Assembly (NCBI RefSeq): GCF_021401125.1
Contig: NZ_JACBFQ010000010.1
Span: 62,001 to 126,000 of the forward strand
Source of the DNA: Xanthobacter sp. NM-59
Lineage (GTDB): Bacteria; Pseudomonadota; Alphaproteobacteria; Rhizobiales; Xanthobacteraceae
DNA: 64,000 bases
Direction of reading: 5' to 3'
Position numbers and translations under genes: made by a program. Numbering within the stretch: the first letter of the stretch is position 1; each line of letters begins with the position of its first letter. Under the pieces are notes generated by a model. That model did not search any database and was not told the DNA's origin. It worked only from the letters and a program-made list of their open reading frames with translations. Below, one piece after another: positions 5,664 through 42,500 of this stretch.

Positions 5664-5700
5664 ATCTATAATTTATAAAATCCGTAGAAATTATTGACTA
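5664..5700 (-). promoter_or_regulatory. AT-rich sulfur-operon control element, site 1 (ssuD side)
   Basis: A 37-bp stretch almost free of G/C in a 70% GC region, about 40 bp upstream of the ssuD start. Read towards ssuD it contains TACGGATTTTATAAATTATAG, written here as TACGGATTTTATAAA + TTATAG. This matches the core shared by six other islands in the window (consensus near ATCGATTTTATAWAWTATAG). It may be an operator, a promoter, or both. The regulator is unknown. Confidence 0.6.
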
Positions 5701-5723
5701 CATGAAGGCAGCCTGTCTATCCT
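5694..5723 (+). promoter_or_regulatory. Possible sigma-70 type promoter for the reductase-ssuACB operon
   Basis: TTGACT (5694-5699, five of six bases of the -35 consensus) followed after 18 bp by TATCCT (5718-5723, four of six of the -10 consensus) points to the flavin reductase gene. The -35 element touches AT-rich site 1, so a protein bound there could affect both divergent operons. Confidence 0.4.
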
Positions 5724-5832
5724 TTTTTCCGATCCGCCGCTTTCGGCCCGTTCCGAAGGCGGTTCAGACCACCCGAGGGGCCGGCATCGCCGATGCAGGT
5801 CCGGTGCCCGCATGCCTACCGAGAGCTTAAAG

Positions 5833-6372
5833 ATGAACGCTCACTCCACTGCGGATGCTGCCGCCGCCACCACGACCGCCGTGCTGCCGCCGGCTTCGCT
5901 CGCCTTCCGCGCCGCCATGCGCAAGCTCGCCGGGGCGGTGAGCGTCCTCACCGTCGGCGCGGGCGAAGAGCGCACGGGGCTCACCGCGACCTCGGTGAGC
6001 TCGGTGTCGGTGGAACCGCCGACCCTGCTCATCTGCGTGAACCGCACCGCCTCCTCTTTGGCGGCGCTGCTGAAGCACCGGACCTTCGCCATCAATGTGC
6101 TGCGCCCGCAGCACGAGGAGGTGGCCGGCCGCTTCGCCGGCCAGGACGGACTGAAGGGCCCCGCGCGCTATGAAGGCGCCGACTGGACCCGCCTTTCCAC
6201 CGGCGCCCCGGTGCTAGCCGACGCCCTCGCCGCCTTCGACTGCGAGCTGGAAGACGCCATCGAGCGGCACTCCCACGTCATCGTCATCGGCCGGGTGGTG
6301 GCCTCGCGCGTCACCGAAAATGCCGAGCCGCTCCTCTACTGGGCCGGCGGCTATCGCAGCCTCGCCCTCTGA
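5833..6372 (+). CDS. Flavin reductase (FMN reductase-like domain)
   Basis: 179-residue protein of the flavin-reductase family (PF01613 type: FRAAMRKLAGAVSVLTVG, then TGLTATSVSSVSVEPPTLLICVN written as two motifs TGLTATSVSSVS and PPTLLICVN). Such enzymes use NAD(P)H to reduce free FMN, which the neighbouring monooxygenases need. It is not the flavodoxin-fold SsuE of E. coli, but fills the same role by context. I chose the ATG at 5833 because GAGAG lies seven bases upstream. An in-frame ATG at 5812 has no ribosome site. It is first in a plus-strand operon with ssuACB and the only dedicated reductase of this family seen for six LLM enzymes. Confidence 0.88.
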   Translation: MNAHSTADAAAATTTAVLPPASLAFRAAMRKLAGAVSVLTVGAGEERTGLTATSVSSVSVEPPTLLICVNRTASSLAALLKHRTFAINVLRPQHEEVAGRFAGQDGLKGPARYEGADWTRLSTGAPVLADALAAFDCELEDAIERHSHVIVIGRVVASRVTENAEPLLYWAGGYRSLAL

Positions 6373-6400
6373 TCCAGTCTTGAAGCAAGGGGTTTCGCCC

Positions 6401-7360
6401 ATGACATCCGGCATCACCCGCCGCCGCTTTGCCCTCGCCGCCGCAGCCCTGGCCGGCAGCCTTGCCCTCCCCTCCGCGCCCGCATTGGCGCAGGAAAAGG
6501 TGGTGCGCATCGGCTACCAGAAGTACGGCACCCTCATCCTGCTCAAGAACAAGGGCCTGCTGGAAGAGCGGCTGAAGCCCTTGGGCTACACCGTGAAGTG
6601 GGCCGAGTTCCCGGCCGGTCCGCAGCTGCTGGAGGCGCTCAATGCCGGGGCCGTGGACTTCGGCAATACCGGCGAGGCACCGCCCATCTTCGCCCAGGCG
6701 GCCGGCGCGCCTTTGGTCTATGTGGGCTACGAGCCCGCCGCGCCCACCGGCGAGGCCATCCTGGTGCCCAAGGACAGCCCGCTGAAGAGCGTGGCCGATC
6801 TCAAGGGCAAGACGGTGGCCCTCAACAAGGGCTCCAACGTGCACTACCTGCTGGTGAAGGCGCTGGAGAAGGCGGGCGTGCCCTATGCCGACATCAAGAC
6901 CGCCTTCCTGACCCCGGCCGATGGCCGCGCCGCCTTCGAGCGCGGTTCGGTGGACGCCTGGGCCATCTGGGACCCGTTCCAGGCGGCCGCTGAAAAGACC
7001 ATTGAGGCCCGCACCCTGGCCGACGGCACCGGCATCGTTTCCAACTACCAGTTCTATTTCACCACCAAGGCGTTCGCCGAGCGCGCGCCGCAGGTGGTGG
7101 ACGCGATCCTCGACGGCGTCGCCGAGATCGGGGCCTGGGTGACGGCCAATCCGAAGGCGGCGGCCGCGCAGTTCTCGCCCCTCATCGGGATTCCCGCGCC
7201 GGTCCTGGAAGTGACCCTGGCCCGCCAGCAATATGATGTGAAGCCGGTGACGCCCGAGGTGGCGGCGGCGCAGCAGAAGGTGGCGGACGCCTTCTTCACC
7301 CTGGGCCTCATTCCCAAGCCCATCCGCATTTCCGACGCGCTCCGGCCGCCGAAGTCCTGA
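6401..7360 (+). CDS. ssuA: Aliphatic sulfonate ABC transporter, periplasmic binding protein SsuA
   Basis: 319-residue solute-binding protein of the SsuA/NMT1-like family. The N-terminus has a twin-arginine-like signal (TRRRFALAAAALAG) and a cleavage site near ALAQEK. The mature part begins VVRIGYQKYGTLILLKNKG and continues with AGAVDFGNTGEAPPIFAQA and a SVADLKGKTVALNKGSNVHY segment, all typical of sulfonate/taurine binders. The ATG at 6401 has AAGG upstream. The longer in-frame start at 6320 would lie inside the reductase gene. It binds sulfonates in the periplasm and delivers them to the SsuC permease encoded 11 bp downstream. Confidence 0.93.
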   Translation: MTSGITRRRFALAAAALAGSLALPSAPALAQEKVVRIGYQKYGTLILLKNKGLLEERLKPLGYTVKWAEFPAGPQLLEALNAGAVDFGNTGEAPPIFAQAAGAPLVYVGYEPAAPTGEAILVPKDSPLKSVADLKGKTVALNKGSNVHYLLVKALEKAGVPYADIKTAFLTPADGRAAFERGSVDAWAIWDPFQAAAEKTIEARTLADGTGIVSNYQFYFTTKAFAERAPQVVDAILDGVAEIGAWVTANPKAAAAQFSPLIGIPAPVLEVTLARQQYDVKPVTPEVAAAQQKVADAFFTLGLIPKPIRISDALRPPKS

Positions 7361-7371
7361 AGGCACCGGCC

Positions 7372-8250
7372 ATGAGCTCCACCCTGACTTCGGCGGCGGC
7401 ATCTCCCTCCGCCGCCGAAAGCCACCCCCAGGCCAGGGAGCCCAGCGTGCCCCGGATAACGGCTTACGTCCGGTCCGTCAGCCGCGCGTTGCTGCCCTGG
7501 GCCCTGCCGCTCGGTGCGCTGATCGCCTGGCAGGCGGCGGCGAGCCTTGGCCTCCTGTCCACGCGGGTGCTGCCGGCCCCCAGCGATGTCGCGCTGGCCT
7601 TCTGGCGGACGCTGAAGGACGGATCACTGCTCGCCAATATCTCCGTCTCCACCGGGCGGGCTCTGGTCGGGCTCGCCATCGGCGGCGCCGTCGGCCTCGC
7701 CCTCGGGGTGCTCAACGGGGTGTGGCGGCCCGCGGAGACCATTTTCGATTCCACCCTGCAGATGCTGCGCAATGTGCCGCACCTCGCCATCATCCCGCTG
7801 GTGATCCTGTGGTTCGGCATCGATGAGGAAGCCAAGATCTTCCTTGTCGCCATCGGCGTCGCCTTCCCCATCTATCTCAACACCTTCCACGGCATCCGCA
7901 CGGTCGACCGGGGGCTGGTGGAGATGGCGCGGGTCTACGGGCTCCCGCCCGGCGCCCTGTTCCTGCGCATCGTGCTGCCTGGGGCGCTGCCCTCCATCCT
8001 GGTGGGGCTGCGCTATGCGCTGGGCATCATGTGGCTGACGCTGATCGTGGCGGAAACCATCTCCTCCACCTCCGGCATCGGCTACATGACCATGAACGCC
8101 CGCGAATTCCTGCAGACCGACGTGGTGGTGCTGGGGGTGGTCGCCTACGCCCTGCTCGGCAAGCTGGCCGACAGCCTCACCCGTGCCATCGAGCGCCGGG
8201 CGCTGGCCTGGCACCCCGCCTATCAAGGCGAGGCGGGAGGCATCGCATGA
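7372..8250 (+). CDS. ssuC: Aliphatic sulfonate ABC transporter permease SsuC
   Basis: 292-residue inner-membrane permease of the BPD_transp_1 family. The first 35 residues are polar, followed by about six hydrophobic helices. The EAA-type loop that contacts the ATPase is visible as EMARVYGLPPGALFLRIVLP (residues about 184-203). It forms the transmembrane pore of the sulfonate importer with SsuA and SsuB. The gene starts 11 bp after ssuA and its stop overlaps the ssuB start (ATGA), so the three genes are translationally coupled. Confidence 0.93.
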   Translation: MSSTLTSAAASPSAAESHPQAREPSVPRITAYVRSVSRALLPWALPLGALIAWQAAASLGLLSTRVLPAPSDVALAFWRTLKDGSLLANISVSTGRALVGLAIGGAVGLALGVLNGVWRPAETIFDSTLQMLRNVPHLAIIPLVILWFGIDEEAKIFLVAIGVAFPIYLNTFHGIRTVDRGLVEMARVYGLPPGALFLRIVLPGALPSILVGLRYALGIMWLTLIVAETISSTSGIGYMTMNAREFLQTDVVVLGVVAYALLGKLADSLTRAIERRALAWHPAYQGEAGGIA

Positions 8251-9065
8251 GCGAGGCCTTCGCTCCACGGCCCGGCTCCGCCACGGCACCCGCCCAATCG
8301 GCGGACATCCGCGGCACCTTCCGCCCCGCCGCGCCGCCGCCCGAGCCCTCCCTCCGCTGGGCGGGCTCACCCGTTCGGCTGGACGGCGTCACCAAGAGCT
8401 TCGGCGACCGGCCGGTGCTGCGCCGGCTCAATCTGGACATCCCCGCCGGCCAGTTCGTCGCCGTGGTCGGGCGCTCCGGCGGTGGCAAGACCACGCTCAT
8501 GCGCCTCGTCTGCGGTCTTGACCTCGCGACCTCCGGCGAGGTTTTCGTGGGCGACACGAAGGTGAACGGCCTGATGCCCCAGGTGCGGCTGCTGTTCCAG
8601 GATCCGCGGCTGGCCCCCTGGCAGCGTGTGCTTGCCAATGTGGGCATCGCCCGTGGTCCCGGCTGGCGCGAGGCGGCCGATGCCGCGCTGCGCGATGTGG
8701 GCCTTGCCGACCGCGGGCGCGACTGGCCCAGCGTGCTCTCGGGCGGGCAGAAGCAGCGCGTGGCCTTGGCGCGGGCGCTCGTGTCCCGCCCCGGCGTGCT
8801 GCTGCTGGACGAGCCCTTCGGCGCCCTCGACGCCTTGACCCGGAGCGAGATGCACCGCCTCATCGAGCGGATCTGGACCGAGCACGGCTTCACCGCGGTG
8901 CTCATCACCCATGACGTAGCCGAAGCGGTGGCCCTGGCCGACCGGGTGGTGGTGCTCCGCCAGGGCGAGGTCGCCCTCGACGTGAGCGTGGACCTGCCCC
9001 GCCCGCGCGCGTCCGCCACCACCGAAGCTCTGGAGCTGCAACGCCGCATCCTCGCCGCCGTGTGA
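8247..9065 (+). CDS. ssuB: Aliphatic sulfonate ABC transporter ATP-binding protein SsuB
   Basis: 272-residue ABC ATPase that powers the SsuABC importer from the cytosolic face. Walker A is GRSGGGKTT, the signature is LSGGQKQRVALARAL, and Walker B is LLLDEPFGALDALTR, the form shared by the nitrate/sulfonate/taurine ATPases. The H-loop is LITHDVAEA. The start is the ATG in the ATGA overlap with ssuC; an in-frame upstream start at 8031 would lie deep inside ssuC. About 45 residues precede the ABC domain, somewhat more than in E. coli SsuB. It is the last gene of the operon and is followed by a clear terminator hairpin. Confidence 0.93.
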   Translation: MSEAFAPRPGSATAPAQSADIRGTFRPAAPPPEPSLRWAGSPVRLDGVTKSFGDRPVLRRLNLDIPAGQFVAVVGRSGGGKTTLMRLVCGLDLATSGEVFVGDTKVNGLMPQVRLLFQDPRLAPWQRVLANVGIARGPGWREAADAALRDVGLADRGRDWPSVLSGGQKQRVALARALVSRPGVLLLDEPFGALDALTRSEMHRLIERIWTEHGFTAVLITHDVAEAVALADRVVVLRQGEVALDVSVDLPRPRASATTEALELQRRILAAV

Positions 9066-9114
9066 CACCCGGGCGAGCACGAGAGCAGCGTGCGGAGGCG
9101 CAGGTTCTGCGGAG

Positions 9115-9138
9115 AAGGGGGAGCATCTCCCCCTTTTT
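9115..9138 (+). terminator. Rho-independent terminator after ssuB
   Basis: Perfect 9-bp stem AAGGGGGAG / CTCCCCCTT with a 3-base loop, running into five T residues (9134-9138), 50 bp after the ssuB stop. It separates the plus-strand ssu operon from the convergent TPR/ABC operon. Confidence 0.75.
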
Positions 9139-9220
9139 GCGGGGTGGATGACATGCCCTCGCGTGTTGAGTTGGCGCGTCTGTCTTATGCGAGCCGACGC
9201 GCGCGTGGTGTGAGGAAGTT

Positions 9221-10479: not shown

Positions 10480-10504
10480 GGGTGGTCCTTTCTCGCTCCG
10501 GGGG

Positions 10505-11353: not shown

Positions 11354-11426
11354 ATCTGTCTCGTCGTGCTGTGTCGCGACCAGGCGATGAGGACAAGCAG
11401 GCGGGAGCCGGGCTCCCGCCGGCCGC

Positions 11427-12503
11427 TCAGTTGTAAATGGAATACGGGCCGCCGACGAAGAAGCGGCCGTCCACGAAGGCATTCACCTGCTCATCGGACA
11501 GCTGCCGCTCGGCGAGGATGTCGTCGCCATTGGCCACGTACCAGGCCTGGAAGGCCTTGATGGCGGAACGCGCGCGGTCGGCATTGGGCTCGCCGGCCAT
11601 GAACTCCCACTCGCCCGCATGGGTGATCTGGAACTTGGCCACCTCCAGCGGCACGCGGGTCTTGTCGGAGATGATCTGGGCGGCCTCGTCCACATGGTCG
11701 AGGGTCCAGGCGCGGGTCTTCTCGCGGGCCGCGAGGAAGGCCTTCACCACCTCGGGATACTTGTTCACGAAGTCCCTGCGGGCGAAGTAGGTCACCCGCC
11801 CGGCATTGTTCACGTACACGCCATCGTCGGGCGAATGGCCCACCACCTTCAGCCGGCCGGAAAGCCACGCCCCGGTGAAGGCGCCGGCGGCGAGATGCGC
11901 GGTGGTCGCGTCGGTCGCGCCCGAGAGCACGGAGGAGATGGCCACCGCCGAATTGTCGATGGAGGTGTAGCGGATGCGCCCCTTCTTCTCCCGGGAGTCG
12001 AAGGGCAGGCCGGCCTTGGTGGTGATCTCGAACGGCGACGACCAGTAGCAGGAGATGCGGGACGAGCCGAACGACTTGCCGTCGAGGTCGGCCACTGAAT
12101 TGATCTTGTCGTTGTCGGCGCGGGCCAGGATGGGCGCGCGGTAGCGGTTGGAGGGCTCCGAGGCCCAGATCACCACGCCGTCGAGCCCGTTGGCCCGGTG
12201 CACGGTCGCCGGATAAATCATGCGCTGGGCGATGGCGATGGCGCCGCCATTCACCGCCGCCGATTCCGCGCCGAGCAGATCCGCCGCGCCCGACGCGATG
12301 AGATTGACCTTCGTGGTGCCGATGGGCGCGAACTCTTCTTTGAAAAAGCCCTTCTCCTGCGCAACCACGGTCCAGGGCGTCAGCTGAAGATTGATGGCGG
12401 GCAGCGCTTCTGCGGCGCCAGCGGGACCGGCGGCAACGGTGAGCCCAAGGCCGAACAGAACACTCTTGAACGGGCCGGCAGGCGGGGTGCGGAAGGAGGG
12501 CAT
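11427..12503 (-). CDS. SsuA/TauA-like ABC transporter periplasmic binding protein
   Basis: 358-residue solute-binding protein. The signal peptide runs over residues 1-31 (FKSVLFGLGLTVAAGPAGAA). The mature part has the NMT1/SsuA-like pattern: INLQLTPWTVVAQEKGFF, then GAADLLGAESAAVNGGAIAI, and INSVADLDGKSFGSSRISC. It carries an odd Cys-Tyr-Trp in that last segment. The ATG at 12503 is chosen over a longer frame start at 12542 because it opens directly into the signal peptide. The gene heads the minus operon ending in the TPR gene, with AT-rich site 2 about 50 bp upstream. Ligand unknown; the context argues for an organosulfur compound. Confidence 0.87.
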   Translation of the reverse strand: MPSFRTPPAGPFKSVLFGLGLTVAAGPAGAAEALPAINLQLTPWTVVAQEKGFFKEEFAPIGTTKVNLIASGAADLLGAESAAVNGGAIAIAQRMIYPATVHRANGLDGVVIWASEPSNRYRAPILARADNDKINSVADLDGKSFGSSRISCYWSSPFEITTKAGLPFDSREKKGRIRYTSIDNSAVAISSVLSGATDATTAHLAAGAFTGAWLSGRLKVVGHSPDDGVYVNNAGRVTYFARRDFVNKYPEVVKAFLAAREKTRAWTLDHVDEAAQIISDKTRVPLEVAKFQITHAGEWEFMAGEPNADRARSAIKAFQAWYVANGDDILAERQLSDEQVNAFVDGRFFVGGPYSIYN

Positions 12504-12552
12504 CGCGGGTTCTCTTGGCAGGAAAATCGGGGGCTCCGGCATGAGCCGGCTT

Positions 12553-12590
12553 GCTATTTATATATATTCGATCATTTTTATGTACAAAAG
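12553..12590 (-). promoter_or_regulatory. AT-rich sulfur-operon control element, site 2
   Basis: AT-only island between two divergent genes (starts at 12503 on minus and 12690 on plus). Read towards the minus gene it contains GATCGAATATATATAAATAG, matching the shared core near ATCGATTTTATAWAWTATAG. Outer arms TTGCT (12551-12555) and AGCAA (12589-12593) form a further inverted repeat. Confidence 0.55.
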
Positions 12591-14794: not shown

Positions 14795-16153
14795 CTATTC
14801 CGCCGCCACGGCCGGGGCGCTCGCCCGGTGGGCCGGGTGGACGGGAAAGGGCAAGCCGAGATTCTCGCGTAGCGTGGTGCCCTCATATTCCTTTCGGAAC
14901 AGGCCCCGGCGACGCAGGATGGGCAGCACCTGCTCGATGAAGTCCTCGAGCCCGCCCGGCAGGTGCGGCGCCATGATGTTGAAGCCGTCGGCGCCCTCCT
15001 TCGCGAAGCGCTCTTCCAGCTGGTCGGCGATCTGCTCCGGCGTGCCCACCACCTGCCAATGGCCGCGCGCCCCGGCAATGGACAGATAGAGCTGGCGGAT
15101 GGTGAGATTGTCGCGCCGCGCGGCGTCGATCACCAATTGCTGGCGGCTCTTCGGCCCGTTGGTTTCGGGCAGATCGGGCAGCGGGCCGTCCACGTCATAG
15201 CCGGACAGGTCGGGCACGCCCATGATGGTGGACAGGAGCTGGAGCCCCACCTGCGGCTCGATGAGCCCTTGCAGTTCCTCGAACTTCTCCCGCGCCTCCG
15301 CCTCCGTCCGGCCGATGACGGGGAAGACGCCGGGCATGATCTTCACATGGTCCGGGTCGCGCCCGGCCTTGGCGGCGCGGGCCTTGATGTCGGCATAGAA
15401 AGCCCGGGCCTCGGCCAGGGTGCGATGGGCGGCGAACACCACTTCGGCGCTGGCGCCGGCCAGATCGCGCCCATCCTCGGACGCGCCGGCCTGCACGATC
15501 ACGGGATGGCCCTGCTGCGAGCGGGCGACATTGAGCGGCCCGCGCACCGAGAAATGACGGCCATGGTGGTTCAGCGGGTGGAGCTTCTCCGGATCGAAGA
15601 AGGCGCCCGAGACCTTGTCGCGGATGAAGGCGTCGTCCTCCCAGCTGTTCCACAGCCCCTTCACCACCTCCACGAACTCGCGGGCGCGGTCATAGCGCGC
15701 GGCATGGGGCGGGTGGCCATCACCGCGGAAGTTCGCCGCCTCCTCGTCTCCGGCGGAGGTGACGAGGTTCCACCCGGCGCGCCCGCCGCTCATGAGGTCG
15801 AGGGACGCGAACTGGCGGGCCAGGTTGAACGGCTCGTTGAAGGAGGTGGAGGCGGTGCCGATGAGGCCAATATTGTGGGTCACCACCGAGAGGGCCGACA
15901 GCAGGGTCAGCGGCTCGAAGCCCACATTGCGGGACGTCCGGCTCACCGAGCGGATATTGGTGTCGCGGATGCCCAGCGCATCGGACAGGAACAGCGCGTC
16001 GAGCTTCGCCGCCTCGGCCAGGCGCGCAAGGCGCAGATAATGGTCAACCCGCACATGGGCATTGGCGGGCGAACGGGGATGGCGCCACGCTGCGATATGG
16101 TGGCCGTCCGTCATCAGGAACGCGCCGAGCTTGATCTGCCGGGTCTTGGCCAT
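14795..16153 (-). CDS. NtaA/SnaA/DszA-family flavin-dependent monooxygenase (copy 1)
   Basis: 452-residue LLM-class monooxygenase of the nitrilotriacetate/DszA/CmoJ subgroup: KLGAFLMTDGHHIAAWRHP at the start, SGGRAGWNLVTSAGDEEAANF in the barrel (split here as SGGRAGWNLVTS and GDEEAANF), and GHPVIVQAGASEDG later. Enzymes of this group use FMNH2 from a separate reductase to break C-N or C-S bonds. The 450-residue length fits. It is alone on its transcript, with AT-rich site 3 about 130 bp upstream. Substrate unknown; thioethers, sulfones or S-substituted cysteines are possible. Confidence 0.9.
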   Translation of the reverse strand: MAKTRQIKLGAFLMTDGHHIAAWRHPRSPANAHVRVDHYLRLARLAEAAKLDALFLSDALGIRDTNIRSVSRTSRNVGFEPLTLLSALSVVTHNIGLIGTASTSFNEPFNLARQFASLDLMSGGRAGWNLVTSAGDEEAANFRGDGHPPHAARYDRAREFVEVVKGLWNSWEDDAFIRDKVSGAFFDPEKLHPLNHHGRHFSVRGPLNVARSQQGHPVIVQAGASEDGRDLAGASAEVVFAAHRTLAEARAFYADIKARAAKAGRDPDHVKIMPGVFPVIGRTEAEAREKFEELQGLIEPQVGLQLLSTIMGVPDLSGYDVDGPLPDLPETNGPKSRQQLVIDAARRDNLTIRQLYLSIAGARGHWQVVGTPEQIADQLEERFAKEGADGFNIMAPHLPGGLEDFIEQVLPILRRRGLFRKEYEGTTLRENLGLPFPVHPAHRASAPAVAAE

Positions 16154-16282
16154 AACGTCCTCGAATTGCCGTTCGGGAGGGCCGAGGGCATCTAGCCCCT
16201 CGCCCCTCCACCGTTCGTGAAGCGGTCAGCTTCCGCGGCGGCTTTCGAGCGCGGCCACCAGCGGGAGAGCAGCCACCCTGAT

Positions 16283-16322
16283 CTCTATATTTGATAAAAT
16301 CAATAAAATTTATTGTATTTAG
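16283..16322 (-). promoter_or_regulatory. AT-rich sulfur-operon control element, site 3
   Basis: Forty bases with almost no G/C. Read towards the NtaA-type gene at 16153 it contains TATTGATTTTATCAAATATAG (TATTGATTTTATCAA + ATATAG), one of the best matches to the shared core. Upstream of it lies CAATAAATTTT, also found in similar form at sites 1 and 7. Confidence 0.6.
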
Positions 16323-16623
16323 AACAAGGCCCGCCTCCCCCCATCCGCCGGCGCGCTCCGCCGTCCCCGTCGACGGTGAGCTGAAGGGCCGTGGGGGCAG
16401 GGCGCCGATCCGCGTTGCGGCCCCCGGCAGGCGCCCGCCCCACCCCCGCACGCCTCAACCCCCCGGTTCATGCCGCCGCGCCCATCATTGGCCGCTCAGG
16501 CGGCGGAGCCGGGGGCCGGGGCCCGCATGCGCTCGGACCGCCGGGCGCAGCGCGCGGGCGGCCCCGCGCTCCGGCGCGGACGGGGCCGATGCCTTGCCAG
16601 CGGAGGGGCCGACCCGGATCGGT
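16323..16623. other. Gene-free GC-rich spacer
   Basis: Very GC-rich sequence between AT-rich site 3 and the end of the nitroreductase-fold gene. Long open frames here are only by-products of the GC-rich codon pattern. Nothing recognisable seen. Confidence 0.5.
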
Positions 16624-20161: not shown

Positions 20162-21010
20162 TCACCAGGCGGGCAGGATCGTTCCCTTGAACTTGGCGAG
20201 GATGAATTCCTTCACCGGCTCCGAGCGGTAGATTTCAATGAACTTGGCGATGCGCGGATCATCCTTGCGATCCGCGCGGGCGGCGAAGATCAGGGTGAAA
20301 TAGGGCTTGGCCTCCGCGTCCGTGGTCTCCGCCACCAGCGCCGTGTTGAGGTCGAGGCCGGCCAGATAGGCGTAGTTGGAGGACACGAAGGCGGCAGCCA
20401 CGTCATCGAGCGAGCGCGGGAGCTGGGCGGCGTCGAGCTCGACGATCTGAAGCTTCTTCGGGTTCTCCACCACGTCGAGGATGCTGGCATTGAGGCCGGC
20501 GCCGGGCTTCAGCTTGATGAGGCCCGCCTTCTCGAACAGCAGCAGCGCGCGCGCCGCATTGGTGGGATCATTGGGAATGGCGATCTTCGCGCCGGCCGGG
20601 ATATCCCCGGCCTTCTTGAAGGTCTTTGAATAGATGCCGGCCGGCACCAGCAGGGATTCCTCAAGACCCACCAAGTGATAGCCGCGCGCCTTGACCTGGT
20701 TGGCGAGGTAGAACCTGTGCTGGAAATTGTTGAGGTCGAGGTCGCCGGCCTCCAGCGCCGCATTGGGCTGGTTCCAGTCGCTGAACTCGATGATCTCGGC
20801 CGGAAGACCCTGCTGGGCCGAAAGCCGCGCCGCTTCGCGCAGTACGTCCCCATAGGGCCCGGCCGAAACGCCGACCTTCAGCGGCTTGTCGGTGCCCGGC
20901 GGCTGCGCTCCCGGCTGGGCAGCCGCCGGGCTGGCGAGCGCGGCCAGGGACAGGGCGACCAAAGCGGGGGCGAGAAAACGGAACAGGCGGGGAGGAAGGA
21001 TGTTGATCAT
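20162..21010 (-). CDS. metQ: MetQ/NlpA-family periplasmic binding protein without its transporter
   Basis: 282-residue binding protein with a signal peptide (residues 1-32, ending ASPAAAQ) and the NlpA/MetQ pattern: LKVGVSAGPYGDVLREAA, FSDWNQPNAALEAGDLDLN, FQHRFYLANQVKARG and IAIPNDPTNAARALLLFEKA. MetQ delivers methionine or related compounds to MetNI. No metN or metI is visible in the window. It is first in an operon with three flavin enzymes, so it may bind a methionine-like sulfur compound and use another importer. The start lacks a strong ribosome site. Symbol given for family only. Confidence 0.87.
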   Translation of the reverse strand: MINILPPRLFRFLAPALVALSLAALASPAAAQPGAQPPGTDKPLKVGVSAGPYGDVLREAARLSAQQGLPAEIIEFSDWNQPNAALEAGDLDLNNFQHRFYLANQVKARGYHLVGLEESLLVPAGIYSKTFKKAGDIPAGAKIAIPNDPTNAARALLLFEKAGLIKLKPGAGLNASILDVVENPKKLQIVELDAAQLPRSLDDVAAAFVSSNYAYLAGLDLNTALVAETTDAEAKPYFTLIFAARADRKDDPRIAKFIEIYRSEPVKEFILAKFKGTILPAW

Positions 21011-21075
21011 GGGATCCGTTGGGTTGGGGCCGGGCGGCGCGGCCGGAAATATCGGGCGGCGACGATGGCAGCACG

Positions 21076-21118
21076 TCTATATTTAATTAATTTAATCGAT
21101 TTAGTAAATTAAAATCAA
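21076..21118 (-). promoter_or_regulatory. AT-rich sulfur-operon control element, site 4
   Basis: Long AT-only island about 67 bp upstream of metQ. Read towards metQ it has AATCGATTAAATTAATTAAA followed by TATAG: the shared core with a few extra bases in the middle. TTAATTAA is a palindrome inside it. Confidence 0.52.
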
Positions 21119-21180
21119 CGACGACCCGATGCCCCTGCCGTCATTAGGGCCCTGCCGCGACTAGGCATCGGGGGCCCTTC

Positions 21181-29650: not shown

Positions 29651-31315
29651 TCAGGCCTCGATATAGACGTCGGCGAAGGACGCATCGACGCCGGTCACGC
29701 CGATGGTGTGGTTCTTCACCTTCCGATTGAAGATCGTCACGCCGTCGGGGGCGAGGAGGCCGACGGCGGCGACATCATCGTGCACCAGCTTCTGGAAATC
29801 GAACCAGAGCTGGCGGCGCGCCTGCGGATCCCTCTCGATCGCCGCCGCCTCCAGGAGACGATCGACCTCCGGATTGCTGTAGTGCGAGGCATTGGAGAAG
29901 GGCAGCCCGATGCGGAAGTTCCTGGACCACAGTGTGCGTTGCACGCCGAGGGTGGGATCAAAAAGGTTCTGCAGGGATTCCAGAGTAATGTCGAAGTCGC
30001 GGCTGGTATATGTCTTCTGGATATAGGTCGCGAAATCGAAGAATTGGAAATCCACCGGAATGCCCACTTTGGCCAGGGACTGTTTCACGAAGTCACCGGC
30101 GGCCTGGGTGTTGAACGGATTGGCATAAAGGCGCAGCGCAAAGCGCGTGCCGTCGGCCTTGCGCGGGTAGCCGGCCTCGTCCAGCAGAGCGTTGGCGGCC
30201 TTCAGGTCGTAGCCGTAGGGCTCGAGGGAAGGATCGACGAAAGCCTTCAGATTGGGGCTGATGACCGAGGCCGCGACCTTGCCATAGCCGAAATAGACCA
30301 CGTCCAGCAGCTTCTGCAGATCGATGGCCTGGGCGATCGCCAGCCGCACGCGCCGGTCCTGGAGCTGCGGCCGCTCGAAGTTGAAATAGAGCTGGGTCAT
30401 GCGCCCGGCATAGTCATAGCCCCTCGTTTCCGCCCCGAGGCCAGGCAGCGCCGAGACCCGCGCCAGGTCCGCATAGGGCACCGGCGGGCCACCGGCGAGA
30501 TCGAGCTCGCCGGCCTCGAATGCAGCGGAACGGGCGCTCTGGTCGGCGATGAAGCGCACCACCACGCGGTCGAGATAGGGCTTGCCCGCATCCCAGTAAT
30601 CGGGGTTCCGCTCAAGGATGATGTGACTGCCCCGCACCCACTCCCTGAAGAGGAAAGGGCCGGTTCCGATGGGCGCGGAACCGTTCTTGTTGGTGAGAGG
30701 GTCGGTGCCCTCATAGATATGCTTGGCAACGATCGGTGATTCGTTGGCGTCGAGCGCGGTGAGAAGATAAGTCGCCGGCTTCGACAGGCGGATGATCACC
30801 GTATGGTCATCCGGCGTCTCCACTGCTGTGACCGAGGCGAAGGTGCCGCGTCCGCGCGGGTGAATCTTCTTCAGGAGATCGAGGGAATAGGCCACGTCCG
30901 CCGCCGTGAAGGGCTGGCCGTCGTGCCACTTCACCCCCTCGCGCAGCTTGAAGGTGTAGGTGAGCCCGTCGGCGCTGACGTCCCACCGGGTGGCAAGGGC
31001 GGGCTGGGGATTGAAGTTGAGGTCATAGGTGAGGAGCCCCTCCGTCACCTTGGGCGAGATGCGCTGAGTCGGCCCTGCCGTGTGGGCGATGGTCACCAGG
31101 GTCGACGGCTCATGCTCGACCAGGAAGCGCAGCACGCCGCCCTTGACGGGCGCTGATCCCGCCCCCTCCGCCTCATCCTTGGCCCAGGCCGGCGCGAAGG
31201 CGCCACCGCCGCCGAGAAACAGCGCGGCAGCCCCGGCCAGAACCGTGCGCCGGTGGATTTCCCCACGGAAAGTCAAAGACTTCGCGGACGAGGCGGGGGC
31301 GGGAGGCAAGGGCAT
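29651..31315 (-). CDS. Dpp/Opp-type ABC transporter substrate-binding protein
   Basis: 554-residue family-5 binding protein. The N-terminus has a twin-arginine-like export signal (HRRTVLAGAAALFLGGGGAF) cleaved near AWAKD. The mature part shows GGVLRFLVEHEPSTL, LREGVKWHDGQPFTAADVAY and GTGPFLFREWVRGSHIILER, standard for peptide/nickel/glutathione binders. The ATG at 31315 with AAGGAG is preferred over an upstream frame start. It heads a nine-gene operon: importer (five genes), aldo/keto reductase, NtaA-type and LLM monooxygenases, and nitroreductase. The ligand is likely an organosulfur peptide or conjugate, inferred only from this context. Confidence 0.92.
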   Translation of the reverse strand: MPLPPAPASSAKSLTFRGEIHRRTVLAGAAALFLGGGGAFAPAWAKDEAEGAGSAPVKGGVLRFLVEHEPSTLVTIAHTAGPTQRISPKVTEGLLTYDLNFNPQPALATRWDVSADGLTYTFKLREGVKWHDGQPFTAADVAYSLDLLKKIHPRGRGTFASVTAVETPDDHTVIIRLSKPATYLLTALDANESPIVAKHIYEGTDPLTNKNGSAPIGTGPFLFREWVRGSHIILERNPDYWDAGKPYLDRVVVRFIADQSARSAAFEAGELDLAGGPPVPYADLARVSALPGLGAETRGYDYAGRMTQLYFNFERPQLQDRRVRLAIAQAIDLQKLLDVVYFGYGKVAASVISPNLKAFVDPSLEPYGYDLKAANALLDEAGYPRKADGTRFALRLYANPFNTQAAGDFVKQSLAKVGIPVDFQFFDFATYIQKTYTSRDFDITLESLQNLFDPTLGVQRTLWSRNFRIGLPFSNASHYSNPEVDRLLEAAAIERDPQARRQLWFDFQKLVHDDVAAVGLLAPDGVTIFNRKVKNHTIGVTGVDASFADVYIEA

Positions 31316-31372
31316 CTGCCATCTCCTTCGAGGCTGATCGGGAAGCCAACGATAGGGGCACGGCACATTTCG

Positions 31373-31410
31373 TCAATTGATTTTATATAAAATCGATGCA
31401 TTAACTGAAC
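31373..31410 (-). promoter_or_regulatory. AT-rich sulfur-operon control element, site 5 (between Dpp-type operon and tauD-like gene)
   Basis: Contains the perfect 16-bp palindrome GATTTTATATAAAATC (31379-31394). Read towards the Dpp-type operon it gives CGATTTTATATAAAATCAAT followed by TGAC, nearly the same 24 bases as site 6. It lies 58 bp from the Dpp binding-protein start and about 100 bp from the divergent dioxygenase start, so it may serve both. Confidence 0.65.
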
Positions 31411-32979: not shown

Positions 32980-34215
32980 ATGAGCCAGATCGACGACGCC
33001 TGGGGCGCCGGCCCCTCCGAACGCTATGAAACGCTCGCGAGCCGGTTCCGCTCCATCTTCCGCACCATCCGCGAGAGCGCGGTGGACCGCGAGCAGACCC
33101 ATCGCCTGCCGCGCGAGGAAATCGCCGCCCTCAAGGCGTCCGGCTTCACCACGCTGCGGCTGCCGCAGGACGAAGGCGGCTTCGGCGCCACCTTGCCCGA
33201 GCTGTTCAACCTCTTGATCGAGCTGGCGGAAGCCGATCCGAACGTCACCAATGCCCTGCGCGCCCATTTTGGCTTCACCGAGGAGGTGCTGAACTCCCCC
33301 TTCAAGGATTATCGCGACCGCTGGGTGAAGCGCATCGCCGCGAAGGAAACCACCGGCAGCGGCTTCTCCGAGGCGGAAAACACGGTGGGGCACTTCTCCA
33401 CCCGCCTCGTGCGCGACGGCGACAACTGGCGCCTCGACGGCGAGAAATACTACACCACCGGCTCGCTCTTCGCCGACTGGATCAATCTCGGCGCCGATGA
33501 CGAGAATGGCGAGCTCATCCTGGCCCAAGTGCCCACCAGCGCCCCCGGCGTGACCATTCTCGATGACTGGGACGGCTTCGGCCAACAGCTCACCGCCTCG
33601 GGCACGGCGCGGTTCAAGGACGTCACCCTGAGCGACGACCTCATCAATCCGCAGCGCAAGCGCTTCCGCTATTCGGTGGCTTTCTACCAGCTGGTCCACC
33701 TCGCCACCCTGGCCGGCATCGGGCGGGCGGCGGCGGGCGATGTGGCGCGGCTGGTGGGCGCCCGCAAGCGCGTGTTCAGCCACGGCAATGCGGATCGCGC
33801 CGGCGCGGATCCACAGATTCTCCAGATGGTCGGCAAGGTGCGGGCCAGCGCCTATGGCGCCGGCGCCACCGTGCTGAAGGCCGCCGAGGCGCTGCAGCGC
33901 GCCTTTGAGGCACGGGAGCGGGAAGGCTCCGAGGGACAGGACCTCACCGCCGCGGTCGCGGACCTGGAAGTGAACCAGGCGGTCACGGTGGTGACCTCTC
34001 TCATCCTCGACGCCACCACCCTTCTGTTCGACGCCCTCGGCGCCTCGTCGGCCAAACGCGGCGTGGGGCTCGATCGCCACTGGCGCAATGCCCGCACCCT
34101 CTCCTCGCACAATCCGCGCATCTATCGCGAGCGGATCGTCGGCGATTTTGCGGTCAACGGCACCTGGCCGCCCGGCGCCTACCGTGTGGGCATCGCCGCT
34201 GGCCATGCGCGCTGA
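32980..34215 (+). CDS. Acyl-CoA-dehydrogenase-fold flavin monooxygenase, DszC/SfnB-like (copy 2)
   Basis: 411-residue flavoprotein of the DszC/SfnB branch: TLRLPQDEGGFGATLPELFN, NWRLDGEKYYTTGSLFADWI, ILDDWDGFGQQLTASGTARF and the C-terminal GVGLDRHWRNARTLSSHNP. These segments are nearly identical in kind to copy 3 at 37454 (NARTIASHNP). They differ more from copy 1. It likely oxidises an organosulfur substrate with FMNH2. It follows the DUF3088 gene and precedes an importer operon that has its own control site. Confidence 0.88.
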   Translation: MSQIDDAWGAGPSERYETLASRFRSIFRTIRESAVDREQTHRLPREEIAALKASGFTTLRLPQDEGGFGATLPELFNLLIELAEADPNVTNALRAHFGFTEEVLNSPFKDYRDRWVKRIAAKETTGSGFSEAENTVGHFSTRLVRDGDNWRLDGEKYYTTGSLFADWINLGADDENGELILAQVPTSAPGVTILDDWDGFGQQLTASGTARFKDVTLSDDLINPQRKRFRYSVAFYQLVHLATLAGIGRAAAGDVARLVGARKRVFSHGNADRAGADPQILQMVGKVRASAYGAGATVLKAAEALQRAFEAREREGSEGQDLTAAVADLEVNQAVTVVTSLILDATTLLFDALGASSAKRGVGLDRHWRNARTLSSHNPRIYRERIVGDFAVNGTWPPGAYRVGIAAGHAR

Positions 34216-34290
34216 CACACACACCCGCGCATCCGGATCCGCCCCGGGCGCGCGGGTGTGCCCGAGAGGGGCAGTTCTGCCGCCCGCCAC

Positions 34291-34330
34291 GATTTTAAAT
34301 TAAATCAATTGACATTATATATTATAAACA
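34291..34330 (+). promoter_or_regulatory. AT-rich sulfur-operon control element, site 6
   Basis: Near-palindrome GATTTTAAATTAAATC (34291-34306) followed by AATTGACATTATATATTATA. The first 24 bases, starting one base earlier with C, match site 5 with only two or three differences and the same orientation towards the downstream operon. The TTGACA at 34309-34314 resembles a -35 element. It is about 180 bp upstream of the binding-protein start at 34507. Confidence 0.62.
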
Positions 34331-34506
34331 ACCATCATCTGAAAAGGCTGCAGCCCCCGTCGGCGCTCCCTCCTCGCCACGGCGCCCCCAACCAGTCGAA
34401 GCGCCCGCCACGCGCCCCGGCGACGCCGCACCAGGCATTCCCTGACCAGCCCTCCCCGACCGGGCGCTGCCGACCCCACATGAACACAGGCGAAAGGAAA
34501 AGACAG

Positions 34507-37382: not shown

Positions 37383-37453
37383 AGCCGGCCAGCTGGGGGG
37401 CTGGCTTTGGTCGCCCCCGGGGGAACACGGCGCGCCGGAAGCCGAAAGGGATT

Positions 37454-38680: not shown

Positions 38681-38716
38681 GACAGTTCCTGGGATGAGGG
38701 GCAGAGCGCAGACCGG

Positions 38717-39712: not shown

Positions 39713-39754
39713 GGGGTTCTCTTGGCTCATTCTTCAAGATCTGGGGGTTGAGAC

Positions 39755-40465
39755 TCAGGCCGCAGCCGGGTCGTGCGCGACACCGAGCTCCGCCAGCAGC
39801 TGCGCGCGGCTGGCGGCGGGCGCGCCGGGTTCCGGCGAGCAATGCTCCGCCGCGATGGCGCCGCCACGCATCACCAGGATGCGGTCGGCGAGCGCGATGG
39901 CCTCATCCACGTCGTGGGTGACGAGCATCACGCCGGGCCGGTGGCGCGCCACCAGCGCCTTCACCAGCCCGTGCATGTGGATGCGGGTGAGCGCGTCGAG
40001 GGCGGCGAAGGGTTCGTCGAGCAGCAGCAGCTCCGGCTCCTGCACCAGCGCGCGGGCCAGGGCCACGCGCTGCGCCTGCCCGCCGGACAGGTTGCGCGGC
40101 CAGTCGTCCAGCCGCCCGCTCAGGCCCACTTCCGCCAGCGCCGCCCCGGCCTTTTGCCGTGCCCCGGCCGCGTTCAGGCCCAGGGCCACGTTGCGCCACA
40201 GGCTGTCCCACGGCAGAAGGCGATGTTCCTGAAACACCACCGCCGGCCGCCCGGGTGCCTCGATGCTCCCGCCGTCGATGGGATCGAGCCCAGCCAGGGC
40301 CCGCAGAAGGGTGGTCTTGCCGCAGCCGCTCTCACCCAGGAGCGCCACGAACTCGCCGCGGCCAATGACGAGGTCCAGCCGGTCGATGATGACGCGCGGC
40401 CCATAGGCGCGCCGCAGCCCCGTGACGCGGACCGCAGGGCGGCGGGAAAGGAGCGCGCCGCTCAT
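39755..40465 (-). CDS. SsuB-type ABC transporter ATP-binding protein
   Basis: 236-residue ABC ATPase: Walker A GESGCGKTT, signature LSGGQAQRVALARAL, Walker B LLLDEPFAALDALTR, H-loop LVTHDVDEAIALADR. The ATG overlaps the permease stop (ATGA); the frame continues upstream only within the permease gene. It drives the fourth SsuABC-like importer of the window. Confidence 0.91.
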   Translation of the reverse strand: MSGALLSRRPAVRVTGLRRAYGPRVIIDRLDLVIGRGEFVALLGESGCGKTTLLRALAGLDPIDGGSIEAPGRPAVVFQEHRLLPWDSLWRNVALGLNAAGARQKAGAALAEVGLSGRLDDWPRNLSGGQAQRVALARALVQEPELLLLDEPFAALDALTRIHMHGLVKALVARHRPGVMLVTHDVDEAIALADRILVMRGGAIAAEHCSPEPGAPAASRAQLLAELGVAHDPAAA

Positions 40466-41328
40466 CGTCCCGTCCCGCCGAAATTGGGATGCCAGGCCAG
40501 AAGCCGCCGTTCCAGGAGGCGCGCGGCGGAATCCGCCGCCACCCCGATGAGGGCGTAGATGACGATGGTCAGCACCACCACGTCGGTGCGCAGGAACTCC
40601 CGCGCATCCATGGCCAGAAAGCCGATGCCCGCCTCCGCCCCGAGGGTCTCGGCCACCACCAGCGCCAGCCACGCCGTCGCCAGCGAATAGCGCACGCCGG
40701 TGAGGATAGACGGCAAGGCGCCCGGCAGCACGATGCGGCGGATGAGCGTGAAGGTGGAAAGCCCCTGCACCCGGCCGAGCTCCAGCAGCTTCGGATCCAC
40801 CTGCCGGATCCCCAGGGTGGTGTTGATGTAGATGGGGAAGGCGACACCCAGCGCCACGAGGAAGATCTTCTGCCCTTCCCCAACGCCGAACCAGACGATC
40901 ACCAGCGGCAGCAGCGCGAGGAAGGGGATGGCGCGCACCATCTGCACGCTGCGGTCCAGCAGGGCCTCGGCGATCCGGGAAAAGCCCACCAGCACGCCCA
41001 GCGCGAACGCGATCGAGCCGCCGATGACAAAGCCGATGGCCGCCCGCAGCAGGCTGGTGCCAAGATCGGACAAGAGGCTGCCGGAAATGGTGAGCTTCAC
41101 GGCGGTGGCGAGCACCTTGCTCGGCGCTGGCAGCACCTGGGGCGTCACATAGCCTTGCCGGGCCAGGAATTCCCAGACCGCGAGCAGCGCCACAGGCACC
41201 GCCCAGGACAGCAGGAACAGCCCCCGCCCGCCCAGCCGCGCCGCGCGCCTGCGCGGCCGCGCCAGCGTGCCCGGGGCCGGGTCGGAACGGGATAAGACAA
41301 AGGGGGTGACGGTTTCGACCTGGCTCAC
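40462..41328 (-). CDS. SsuC-type ABC transporter permease
   Basis: 288-residue inner-membrane permease. After about 30 basic, Arg-rich residues come the helices (FLLSWAVPVALLAVWEFLAR first). AIPFLALLPLVIVWFGVGEG and the ATPase-contact loop ELGRVQGLSTFTLIRRIVLP match SsuC closely. It follows the LLM gene by 30 bp and is coupled to the ATPase gene. Confidence 0.91.
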   Translation of the reverse strand: MSQVETVTPFVLSRSDPAPGTLARPRRRAARLGGRGLFLLSWAVPVALLAVWEFLARQGYVTPQVLPAPSKVLATAVKLTISGSLLSDLGTSLLRAAIGFVIGGSIAFALGVLVGFSRIAEALLDRSVQMVRAIPFLALLPLVIVWFGVGEGQKIFLVALGVAFPIYINTTLGIRQVDPKLLELGRVQGLSTFTLIRRIVLPGALPSILTGVRYSLATAWLALVVAETLGAEAGIGFLAMDAREFLRTDVVVLTIVIYALIGVAADSAARLLERRLLAWHPNFGGTGR

Positions 41329-41358
41329 GGGGACCTCGGTTCAGCAGGGATGGGGGCG

Positions 41359-42450
41359 TCAGACCGCTTGCGCGGGGGCGGCGGTCACCGGCCCGCCCGT
41401 TGCCGGGCGCCGGCCCAGGCGGGGGAAGACCTCCGCGGCGAACCGCGCCAACTCCGCGCGCAGGGGCTGGAACTGGAGCATGAACAGCTCGACGCCGGCG
41501 GCGTGGAAGGCGGCGATGCGCTCGGCCACCTGGTCATAGCTGCCCACCAGCCCGGCCGCGGTGCCGCCATTGGTGCCGACGCCCTGCGCCTTGGCGAAGG
41601 TCTGGATCATCACCACATTGGGGTCGGTGCGCGCGGTCATTGCGGCCTTGGCGGCCGCATCCTTCGTGGCCAGGGCGAGCAGCCGCTGATACTCCTGCTC
41701 CGCCTCGCGCTCGGTCTCCCGGGCAATGACGAAGGCGGCGAGACCGAAGCCCAGGGGCGCACCGCGACGCGGCCTGCGGGCCACATCGGCGATGATCGCC
41801 TTCACGTCCGCGATGGGCTGGCCATTGATGAAGAAGACATCGGCATGATCGGCCGCGAGCGCCCGCGCCGCCTCCGACTCTCCGCCGAGATAAATGCGCG
41901 GGCGCGCGCGGGTGGGGCTGGTGGGCGCCAGACGATAGTCGGTGATATGGAAATGCTCGCCTTGGTGCGTCACGCTCTCGCCGCGCAGGAGCTTCTCCAC
42001 CACGAAGATCCATTCGCGCCCATAGGCATAGCGCGCATCATGCTCGCCGAAGGGGATGCCGGCCTTCTCGAATTCAGCCCGGTTCCAGGCATTCACCAGA
42101 TTGAAGCCGAACCGGCCGCCGGAGATGTTCTCGATCTGCAGCGCCATCTTCGCCAGCACCACCGGGTGGTAGAGATAGGGCTTGATGGCAGCCAGGATCT
42201 CGATGCGGCTGGTGAGGGCGGCGAGGGCCGCGCAACCCGTCCACGCTTCCAGCTGGTCCTTCTCGGGCAGATGCGGATTGACGGTGTGCTGCGCCACCAG
42301 GGTGGCGTCATAGCCCAGCGCCTCGGCCTGAAGCACGGTGTCGCGATTGTGGGCCCACGAGGCATCAAAAGGCTCGGCGGTGTCCTGCCAGGCCGCGCGC
42401 GGCCCATGCACAGGCGCCCAGACACCAAGCCGCAACGGGGAAGAGGTCAT
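41359..42450 (-). CDS. LLM-class flavin-dependent monooxygenase (SsuD/SfnG-like)
   Basis: 363-residue LLM-class protein: LRLGVWAPVHGPRAAWQDT, QAEALGYDATLVAQHTV, NISGGRFGFNLVNAWNRAEF, RPRIYLGGESEAARALAADH and a C-terminal LVGSYDQVAERIAAFHAAGV. The pattern lies between SsuD and SfnG. It lacks the GRSCED active-site stretch of SsuD, so the substrate likely differs. It is first in a five-gene operon with an SsuABC-like importer and a DszC-like enzyme. AT-rich site 7 ends only about 10 bp before the ATG, suggesting a very short or absent leader. Confidence 0.88.
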   Translation of the reverse strand: MTSSPLRLGVWAPVHGPRAAWQDTAEPFDASWAHNRDTVLQAEALGYDATLVAQHTVNPHLPEKDQLEAWTGCAALAALTSRIEILAAIKPYLYHPVVLAKMALQIENISGGRFGFNLVNAWNRAEFEKAGIPFGEHDARYAYGREWIFVVEKLLRGESVTHQGEHFHITDYRLAPTSPTRARPRIYLGGESEAARALAADHADVFFINGQPIADVKAIIADVARRPRRGAPLGFGLAAFVIARETEREAEQEYQRLLALATKDAAAKAAMTARTDPNVVMIQTFAKAQGVGTNGGTAAGLVGSYDQVAERIAAFHAAGVELFMLQFQPLRAELARFAAEVFPRLGRRPATGGPVTAAPAQAV

Positions 42451-42457
42451 CTCGTCA

Positions 42458-42500
42458 CCATAATTTATAATATCGATAGAAAAGATATATTATTGGCCAA
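42458..42500 (-). promoter_or_regulatory. AT-rich sulfur-operon control element, site 7
   Basis: AT-rich island at the start of the LLM operon. Read towards the gene it contains TATCGATATTATAAATTATG, a close match to the shared core, preceded by CAATAATATAT as at sites 1 and 3. It ends about 10 bp before the start codon, so transcription may begin at or very near the ATG. Confidence 0.6.

Follow-up and report, generated by a model that had tools for sequence, protein, structure and literature searches.

A palindromic operator predicted to be common to organosulfur genes in Xanthobacter, with a CymR-like Rrf2 protein as candidate regulator

The window analysed here is a 64,000-nucleotide stretch of the genome of Xanthobacter sp. 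NM-59 (contig C1, positions 62001-126000; genome 4.96 Mb; window G+C content 68.7%), where short A/T-rich islands carrying a predicted regulatory element, a 20-bp palindromic operator, lie among genes for the use of organosulfur compounds. According to Pfam and NCBIfam, the islands sit in a large organosulfur cluster that comprises SsuD, a flavin reductase, SsuABC, SsuA-family binding proteins, NtaA/DmoA- and SfnG-like monooxygenases, MetQ/NlpA, an oligopeptide-type ATP-binding cassette (ABC) transporter, TauD, and SfnB/DszC-like flavoproteins. Its genes include the following:

4424-5623, minus strand: alkanesulfonate monooxygenase SsuD (TIGR03565, 616.5 bits against a cut-off of 518.2)
6320-9065, plus strand: SsuA-type binding protein, permease and ATPase of an aliphatic-sulfonate-type transporter (Pfam), with an SsuA that passes the NF008588 and TIGR01728 cut-offs
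14795-16153, minus strand: NtaA/DmoA-family monooxygenase dependent on flavin mononucleotide (FMN) (TIGR03860, 604.4 bits, above the cut-off)
31426 or 31510 (start) to 32484, plus strand: TauD/TfdA-family dioxygenase (PF02668)
32980-34215, plus strand: SfnB/DszC-like oxidoreductase of the acyl-CoA-dehydrogenase fold (TIGR04022, 257 bits, below the equivalog cut-off of 430.9)
41359-42411/42450, minus strand: SfnG/SsuD-like FMN monooxygenase (TIGR04021, 217.6 bits, below the cut-off of 382.95)

With an A/T island defined by 30-bp windows of at least 80% A/T, exactly seven islands were found in the window, at 5663-5700, 12550-12590, 16278-16329, 21072-21121, 31364-31409, 34288-34345 and 42457-42496, numbered here as sites 1 to 7. 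An earlier, sequence-only reading of this DNA had described seven islands of nearly pure A/T; their existence is borne out, their purity is not, the A/T content over the whole length being about 80%. As that reading had also stated, all seven islands lie upstream of, or between, organosulfur-type genes, and none of them falls on the M20/IOR side of the window. The reading frames scanned, from 3 to 45 kb of the window, included no member of a regulator family.

Each island contains at least one copy of a palindromic operator of 20 bp, ATWAAWTCNATNGAWTTWAT, which is the element common to all seven. The core proposed previously, ATCGATTTTATAWAWTATAG, does not play this role, as only three of the seven islands contain it within two mismatches (two mismatches at sites 1, 3 and 7, three at site 5, four at sites 4 and 6, and six at site 2). 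A variant of this core, CGATTWTATNAAWTATAG, was given up as a search pattern: it gave nine matches in the genome at up to three mismatches, four of them window islands (sites 1, 3, 4 and 7), and failed on sites 2, 5 and 6. Motif finding on 27 sites from orthologous promoters returned the palindrome ATAAAWTCnATnGAWTTTAT, so that the operator has the form of an even-length palindrome with a 4-bp spacer. Since the common element is palindromic, the single orientation formerly ascribed to the islands has no meaning. A two-box model, with a palindrome ATTTTNNATAAAAT and a second box about 20 bp further on, was dropped because motif finding gave a single palindrome with frequent overlapping copies at 9-bp steps. 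The likeness noted between sites 5 and 6 holds, 22 of 25 bp being identical, including GATTTTAWATWAAATC, and the presence of two tandem operators at site 5 accounts for the palindrome GATTTTATATAAAATC noted there before. Conservation over 55 non-redundant sites is strongest at A1, T7, A10, T11, A14 and T20, with C8/G13 at 70%, the core positions being biased by the search pattern and the outer ones not; an outer T/A is conserved slightly beyond the operator.

In none of 1000 shuffles of the islands' letters did as many as six of the seven match the operator at up to two mismatches (observed, six; shuffled mean, 0.05), a test in which the pattern derives partly from these same sites. Independent tests were made with a scoring matrix built from 42 sites of other genomes only. 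With this matrix, the eight best scores in the window all fall in the seven islands (23.1-38.1 bits), followed by 15.4 bits (inside site 4) and 12.0 bits. As background we used 340 kb of contig C11 (17 stretches of 20 kb), which contain 22 A/T islands by the same definition: 11 in one stretch (L117), nine in another (L122), one each in two further stretches and none in 13. Here, 15 places reached at least 15 bits, with a maximum of 20.2 bits, and 11 of 12 among the matches listed fall in the island-rich stretches L117 and L122. The window islands thus score higher than A/T-rich islands elsewhere in the same genome, and their description as predicted operator/promoter elements common to organosulfur genes is supported. 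The operators of the window, with their scores in bits from the matrix, are:

Site 1, 5675-5694: ATAAAATCCGTAGAAATTAT, no mismatches to the consensus, 31.2 bits; between ssuD (4424-5623, minus strand) and the flavin reductase/ssuA operon (start about 5812-5833, plus strand)
Site 2, 12562-12581: 28.8 bits; upstream of an SsuA-family binding-protein gene (11427-12503, minus strand)
Site 3, 16294-16313: 38.1 bits; second copy shifted by 9 bp at 16303-16322; upstream of the NtaA/DmoA-type monooxygenase gene (14795-16153, minus strand)
Site 4, 21086-21105: 33.2 bits; second copy shifted by 9 bp at 21077-21096; upstream of a MetQ/NlpA-type lipoprotein gene (20162-21010, minus strand)
Site 5a, 31367-31386: three mismatches, 25.6 bits; between an oligopeptide-type binding-protein gene (29651-31276, minus strand) and the tauD-like gene (plus strand)
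Site 5b, 31387-31406: three mismatches, 23.1 bits; in tandem with 5a and abutting it (20-bp step)
Site 6, 34299-34318: 32.9 bits; upstream of an SsuA-family binding-protein gene (likely start about 34576, end 35523, plus strand)
Site 7, 42467-42486: 27.7 bits; upstream of the SfnG/SsuD-like monooxygenase gene (minus strand)

The operator is also kept at orthologous promoters of other genomes, where a site was counted at up to two mismatches. Site 1 was found in nine of nine full-length close orthologues examined in other genomes of the genus (the split ssuD of genome G011 was left out), site 3 in five of five close orthologues (83-88% identity), and site 2 in all eight Xanthobacter loci L002-L009, two of which come from one strain; the conservation of a core at orthologous loci, on which the earlier claim had been made to depend, was therefore observed for the palindrome at the three promoters examined. 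At site 2 (12550-12590) and in four of the eight orthologues (L002, L004, L008 and L009), an inverted pair GCTTGN ... GCAAGC, about 40 bp apart, was seen to flank the island. Over 14 genomes of the genus, the operator pattern gave 376 strand matches and the reversed pattern 50, a palindromic site being counted on both strands. The numbers were most even in G003 (10 versus 7), which has only three SsuD-family matches, the best of them a broken fragment.

In the genome of the window, 13 places match the operator at up to two mismatches and ten of them directly precede genes of sulfur uptake or oxidation type, six being window islands (site 5 needs three mismatches). The places outside the window are:

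C5:116692, upstream of a sulfate-binding protein and transporter operon
C22:48880, upstream of a second sulfate-binding protein gene
C11:478337, upstream of a TauC/SsuC-like permease, an ATPase, an SsuA-like protein and a TauD-like gene
C30:409859, upstream of an SsuA/TauA-like (NitT/TauT-type) transporter operon
C33:189454, upstream of an Lrp-type gene adjoining a second monooxygenase cluster
Two further places on C11, in or near low-GC DNA, in stretches of 45% and 60% GC

The restriction of the regulon to one locus, as first proposed, is thus not borne out, the sites being present on C5, C11, C22, C30 and C33 too, and the genome scan suggested at that time did find matches upstream of sulfur genes, namely two sulfate-binding-protein genes and two ssu/tau-type operons. 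The sulfate-transport operon on C5, with its overlapping operators (L233, C5:106000-124000), directly adjoins nif-looking genes, named by eye. Matches with three mismatches elsewhere in the genome look like chance: in 17 regions covering part of such places (L214-L230), two sites lie inside genes and the remaining ones have no recognisable sulfur gene adjoining.

The same gene types recur in relatives. In genome G013, 11 of 11 places at up to one mismatch flank organosulfur-type genes, and so do 33 of 34 sites in 20 regions picked for carrying matches, the genes being read from their N-termini in both cases. In relatives, the operator is also found in the gap separating cysH from sbp, in front of a sulfite/nitrite-reductase-cysH operon and in front of the gene for O-acetylhomoserine sulfhydrylase (metY). 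One and the same operator therefore stands upstream of both sulfate and organosulfur genes, as expected of a sulfur-starvation regulon. It marks a genome-wide sulfur-scavenging regulon of ssu, tau, sfn-like and met-type genes and sulfate transport, to which the relatives add reductive sulfate assimilation; from this gene content we infer a response to sulfur starvation. Some further places were noted. In two genera the operator precedes the same DsbA-like/2-hydroxychromene-isomerase-like gene, an unexpected possible member of the regulon (L319:3847 in G026 and L322:4070 in G031), and a perfect palindromic operator adjoins the start of a peroxiredoxin-like gene (L321:4112, G031). An AhpD/carboxymuconolactone-decarboxylase-like gene lies in or adjoins sulfur-type clusters in two genera (L236:1399-1965, and L315 beside 4115).

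The position of the operator relative to the promoter bears on how it could act. Among 28 occurrences of TTGAC (54 of the 55 sites), the motif starts at +20 relative to the operator in 11, at +31/32 in five and at +11 in four, the last position being partly favoured by the operator's own letters. At site 1, a plus-strand promoter (TTGACT at 5694-5699, an 18-bp spacer and TATCCT at 5718-5723) starts at the last base of the operator. The -35 box lies inside the operator at sites 5 and 6, as TTGACG of a minus-strand promoter in 5a and as TTGACA (34309-34314) of a plus-strand promoter at site 6. Sites 2 and 7 yielded no promoter in which both boxes stand at a plausible spacing, and the promoters seen at sites 3 and 4 are weak. 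A good -35 box under the operator would fit repression by exclusion of RNA polymerase, in agreement with CymR; activation from just upstream of the -35 box may be at work instead.

A candidate for such a repressor is encoded elsewhere in the genome, by an Rrf2-family gene at C30:227235-227678. A close homologue is present in 14 of 14 genomes of the genus (84-100% identity to this copy), and in each of the 14 loci read its neighbour is one and the same gene for a small membrane protein. The protein matches the Rrf2 superfamily model (TIGR00738, 107.8 bits against a cut-off of 73.3) and its best match in the PDB is B. subtilis CymR (2e-21), followed by 4cic (2e-19) and S. aureus CymR (6e-19), ahead of IscR entries (4e-9 and weaker). 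It scores 90.9 bits with the CymR equivalog NF047409, below the cut-off of 195, and 59.7, 44.1 and 60.4 bits with the IscR, RirA and NsrR equivalogs, below 207.55, 193 and 182, respectively. Since it passes TIGR00738 and falls below every equivalog cut-off matched, we call it CymR-like and not CymR. Its C-terminal part has the cysteines C91, C100, C103 and C108, and the corresponding signature C-x8-C-x2-C-x4/5-C was found in 51 of 55 matched loci, or 44 of 48 distinct proteins.

Genomic neighbourhood links this family with sulfur genes and, in some genomes, with the operator itself, counted upstream of rrf2 at 20 bits or more or at up to two mismatches. In G013 and G009, Rrf2-family genes lie inside sulfur clusters; one G013 copy is preceded by an operator at a distance of 129 bp, and a further copy is flanked by operator sites on both sides. 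With the Rrf2 protein as the only query, a sample of plasmids was retrieved (14 of the 165 records that matched, 12 of them annotated), and nine of the 12 annotated rrf2 loci adjoin sulfur-type genes: ssuD and SfnB in Mesorhizobium, tauA and its transporter in Shinella, a monooxygenase and transporter in Rhizobium SL42, SfnB in S. medicae, a monooxygenase in Neorhizobium, a sulfate transporter in Thalassospira and Thioclava and, 3 kb off, in Cereibacter, and two FAD/NAD(P)-binding genes in S. meliloti. Operators were found in Mesorhizobium 98 bp upstream of rrf2 and near the flavin reductase (22.6 bits each), in Shinella 56 bp upstream of tauA (29.4 bits) and 145 bp upstream of rrf2 (24.9 bits), and in Rhizobium SL42 between flavin-reductase and flavoprotein genes (26.2 bits). 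Three sites of 23-31 bits occur in Methylopila, found via the site 2 protein. G046, from another family of the order, has one site of 24.1 bits at 149 bp upstream of rrf2 and one of 20.2 bits beside the flavin reductase. Weak matrix scores outside the family (8-18 bits, for instance L287, L291 and L293, which beat all 20 shuffles) were not counted, because the beta-proteobacterial loci L010 and L016 beat shuffles too. Upstream of rrf2 in Rhizobiaceae (L294:5599, L286:6747 and L296:5770) we noticed similar-looking elements (TCTAC...GTAGA, AAATCTATGTAG) with low matrix scores, perhaps a diverged operator.

The joint occurrence of operator and regulator was followed in 23 genomes of the family from genera other than that of the window, with Rrf2 scored as present at E 1e-25 or better. 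The gene was found in seven and was absent from 16. Two or more strand matches at up to one mismatch were present in six of the seven genomes with Rrf2 and in none of the 16 without it (Fisher 6.9e-5), and at least one match in six of seven versus two of 16 (Fisher 0.0017), statistics that ignore kinship and GC content. Of 20 sites from Rrf2-bearing family genomes, ten are clearly linked to sulfur genes (cysH/sbp in three genera, SsuD, SsuE-like, NlpA, monooxygenases, SfnB-like and oligopeptide-type binding protein), one plausibly so, two precede the DsbA-like gene and seven are ambiguous. In the Rrf2-lacking genomes G020 and G023, both sites are unrelated to sulfur genes, and G024 and G030, with about 30 SsuD-family matches each, have neither Rrf2 nor an operator match.

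Taken with the promoter layout, these results make it, in our judgement, somewhat better than an even bet that the operator is read by the conserved CymR-like Rrf2 protein, of which the C30 gene is the copy in this genome, most likely as a repressor in the sulfur-replete state. When the supply of cysteine or iron-sulfur (Fe-S) clusters is adequate, Rrf2 would sit on the operator, covering or abutting the -35 box, and repress transcription; under sulfur limitation it would be released and the sulfur-scavenging genes would be switched on. The sensor would most naturally reside in the four conserved cysteines. That Rrf2 itself binds, that it represses and does not activate, and which signal it reads are inferences.

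Several observations speak against this interpretation. The link between operator and Rrf2 fails across the wider order: among 24 genomes of other families, two or more matches occur in one of five with Rrf2 (41-63% identity) and in nine of 19 without it. The reversed control is similar in five of those nine (G039, 56 versus 34; G043, 23 versus 10; G042, 4 versus 3; G044, 4 versus 6; G047, 2 versus 4) and zero in the other four (G038, G048, G056 and G058). Within the family, clearly sulfur-linked sites come from only three of the seven Rrf2-bearing genomes (G019, G026 and G035); G014 and G015 have no operator match near sulfur genes, the matches of G031 are ambiguous, and G017 has Rrf2 and an SsuD relative and no operator match. 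The neglect of kinship in the family statistics and the naming by eye, from N-termini, of many genes of the relatives count on the same side. So do the PDB entry ranked second, 4cic, which is an Rrf2 protein under a name other than CymR, and the genus-wide rrf2 gene itself, which has no operator nearby at up to four mismatches in the 14 loci. On the plasmids, sites above 20 bits were found at only three of 14 loci and at none of the other 11; S. meliloti is the weakest of the neighbourhood cases, and the rrf2 loci of A. lipoferum, P. alcaliphilus and NGR234, three of the 12, have no sulfur gene within 6 kb. In Rhodobacterales and Rhodospirillales, the Rrf2 homologue may adjoin sulfate-transport genes with no site above 20 bits. 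The failure of the co-occurrence across the order lowered our confidence in the Rrf2 protein as the reader of the operator from fairly probable to the level given above.

This failure also favours the idea that a regulator of another family (Crp/Fnr, GntR/HutC, Lrp or one that went unnoticed) binds the sites and that the Rrf2 genes are merely members of the regulon. Crp/Fnr genes adjoin sites at C11:478k and in G009 (L246), with one more in the C30 operon; the C30 site and its counterpart in G013 have a GntR gene beside them, and the C33 site has an Lrp gene, all of which count against Rrf2 as the regulator. Yet each of these candidates turns up at no more than one to three sites, and for the Lrp protein a search of nine other genomes of the genus gave no close orthologue (best, 45%), for which reason it was rejected as a general regulator. 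We regard a regulator from another family as unlikely, at roughly one chance in five. The Lrp/AsnC-type gene in question (C33:188929-189405) has an operator at its promoter and monooxygenase genes adjoining it. Crp/Fnr-family genes recur in or beside operator-bearing transporter operons (L231:5370-6116, L232:8344-9099 and L246:4797-5573) and are possibly local co-regulators.

Slightly less probable still is a LysR-type activator resembling CysB or Cbl, which the sequence-only reading had suggested. CysB controls the same kinds of genes in gamma-proteobacteria, some sites lie upstream of the -35 box in the position typical of LysR activators, and two of the 36 LysR-type matches in the genome have a three-mismatch site just upstream. 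One of these two, however, is oxyR beside katG and the other, at C30:75467 with its site 23 bp upstream, adjoins a muconate-cycloisomerase-like gene (by eye), neither being sulfur genes. The suggestion is not supported by the search for CysB, either: no convincing orthologue of the E. coli protein was found, the best of the 36 matches being 27% identical over 274 residues. Among the LysR loci looked at (the 12 best and C30:75467, of the 36 matches), none of the 12 best has a site at up to two mismatches, and among the listed gene neighbours in relatives LysR-type genes appear only in L253, L311, L326 and L329. On C22, three overlapping four-mismatch sites at 9-bp steps (L162:3377-3414) were seen about 1.1 kb upstream of a LysR-type gene. 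Finally, the islands could be AT-rich promoter parts of a general kind, UP elements or easily melted DNA, that no specific regulator recognises, as the place of several of them just upstream of a TTGAC -35 box might suggest. This is very improbable and already largely refuted, since letters are conserved at fixed palindromic positions (partly biased by the search pattern), the operator pattern far outnumbers its reverse, the matches are biased to sulfur genes and other AT islands of the same genome score lower with the matrix.

In a wider reading, to which we give not quite an even chance, many Alphaproteobacteria would govern sulfur acquisition through a four-cysteine Rrf2 branch akin to CymR and not through CysB; the branch would read cysteine or Fe-S status and, in Xanthobacteraceae, repress sulfate, sulfonate, taurine and sulfone genes via ATWAAWTCNATNGAWTTWAT, with diverged operators in other families and orders. 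Before the order-wide comparison, we had held this evenly balanced. In the open-licence literature, we found neither an Rrf2 regulator of sulfur acquisition in Alphaproteobacteria nor a description of how those without an evident CysB switch on sulfur scavenging. With an operator defined, targets listed across the genome and a single gene as candidate regulator, the question can be tested directly. If the idea is right, CymR-type logic would extend from Firmicutes to Alphaproteobacteria, with a cysteine signature suggesting a different sensor, and the operator would help to spot genes for the use of organosulfur compounds, such as those for desulfonation and for the use of taurine and sulfones, in bacteria of soil and plants.

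In gamma- and beta-proteobacteria, sulfur starvation is handled by LysR-type or sigma-54 regulators, CysB/Cbl and SsuR/SfnR. The kind of regulon is the same here, covering the acquisition of sulfate, sulfonates and sulfones, but the genome has no evident orthologue of CysB, and the operator has an even number of bases, with 4 bp between its palindromic halves. IscR, RirA and NsrR belong to the same superfamily as the candidate and likewise have cysteines in the C-terminal part; IscR has three, with other spacing, whereas the candidate has four in the arrangement C-x8-C-x2-C-x4/5-C, scores far below the equivalog cut-offs (44-60 bits) and has apparent targets in sulfur scavenging and not in Fe-S assembly, iron or nitric oxide. 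The closest known system is the CymR regulon of Bacillus and Staphylococcus, with a regulator of the Rrf2 family that is the best PDB match of the candidate. It differs in that the candidate stays below the CymR equivalog cut-off (90.9 versus 195 bits) and in the appearance of the operator, compared by eye with one B. subtilis site (PMC11487621). The candidate also has four cysteines in its C-terminal part, whereas B. subtilis CymR binds no Fe-S cluster (PMC9338935), so that the sensor may differ and could involve an Fe-S cluster, zinc or thiols. CymR controls ssu, cysK and tcyP in B. subtilis, and in Firmicutes it keeps genes for the acquisition of sulfonates and cysteine repressed (PMC3828012); in B. 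cereus, cysK and cysH are preceded by putative CymR motifs (PMC3519770). The predicted targets of the candidate, namely the operator-linked genes of ssu, tau, sbp, cysH and metY type, would overlap with these.

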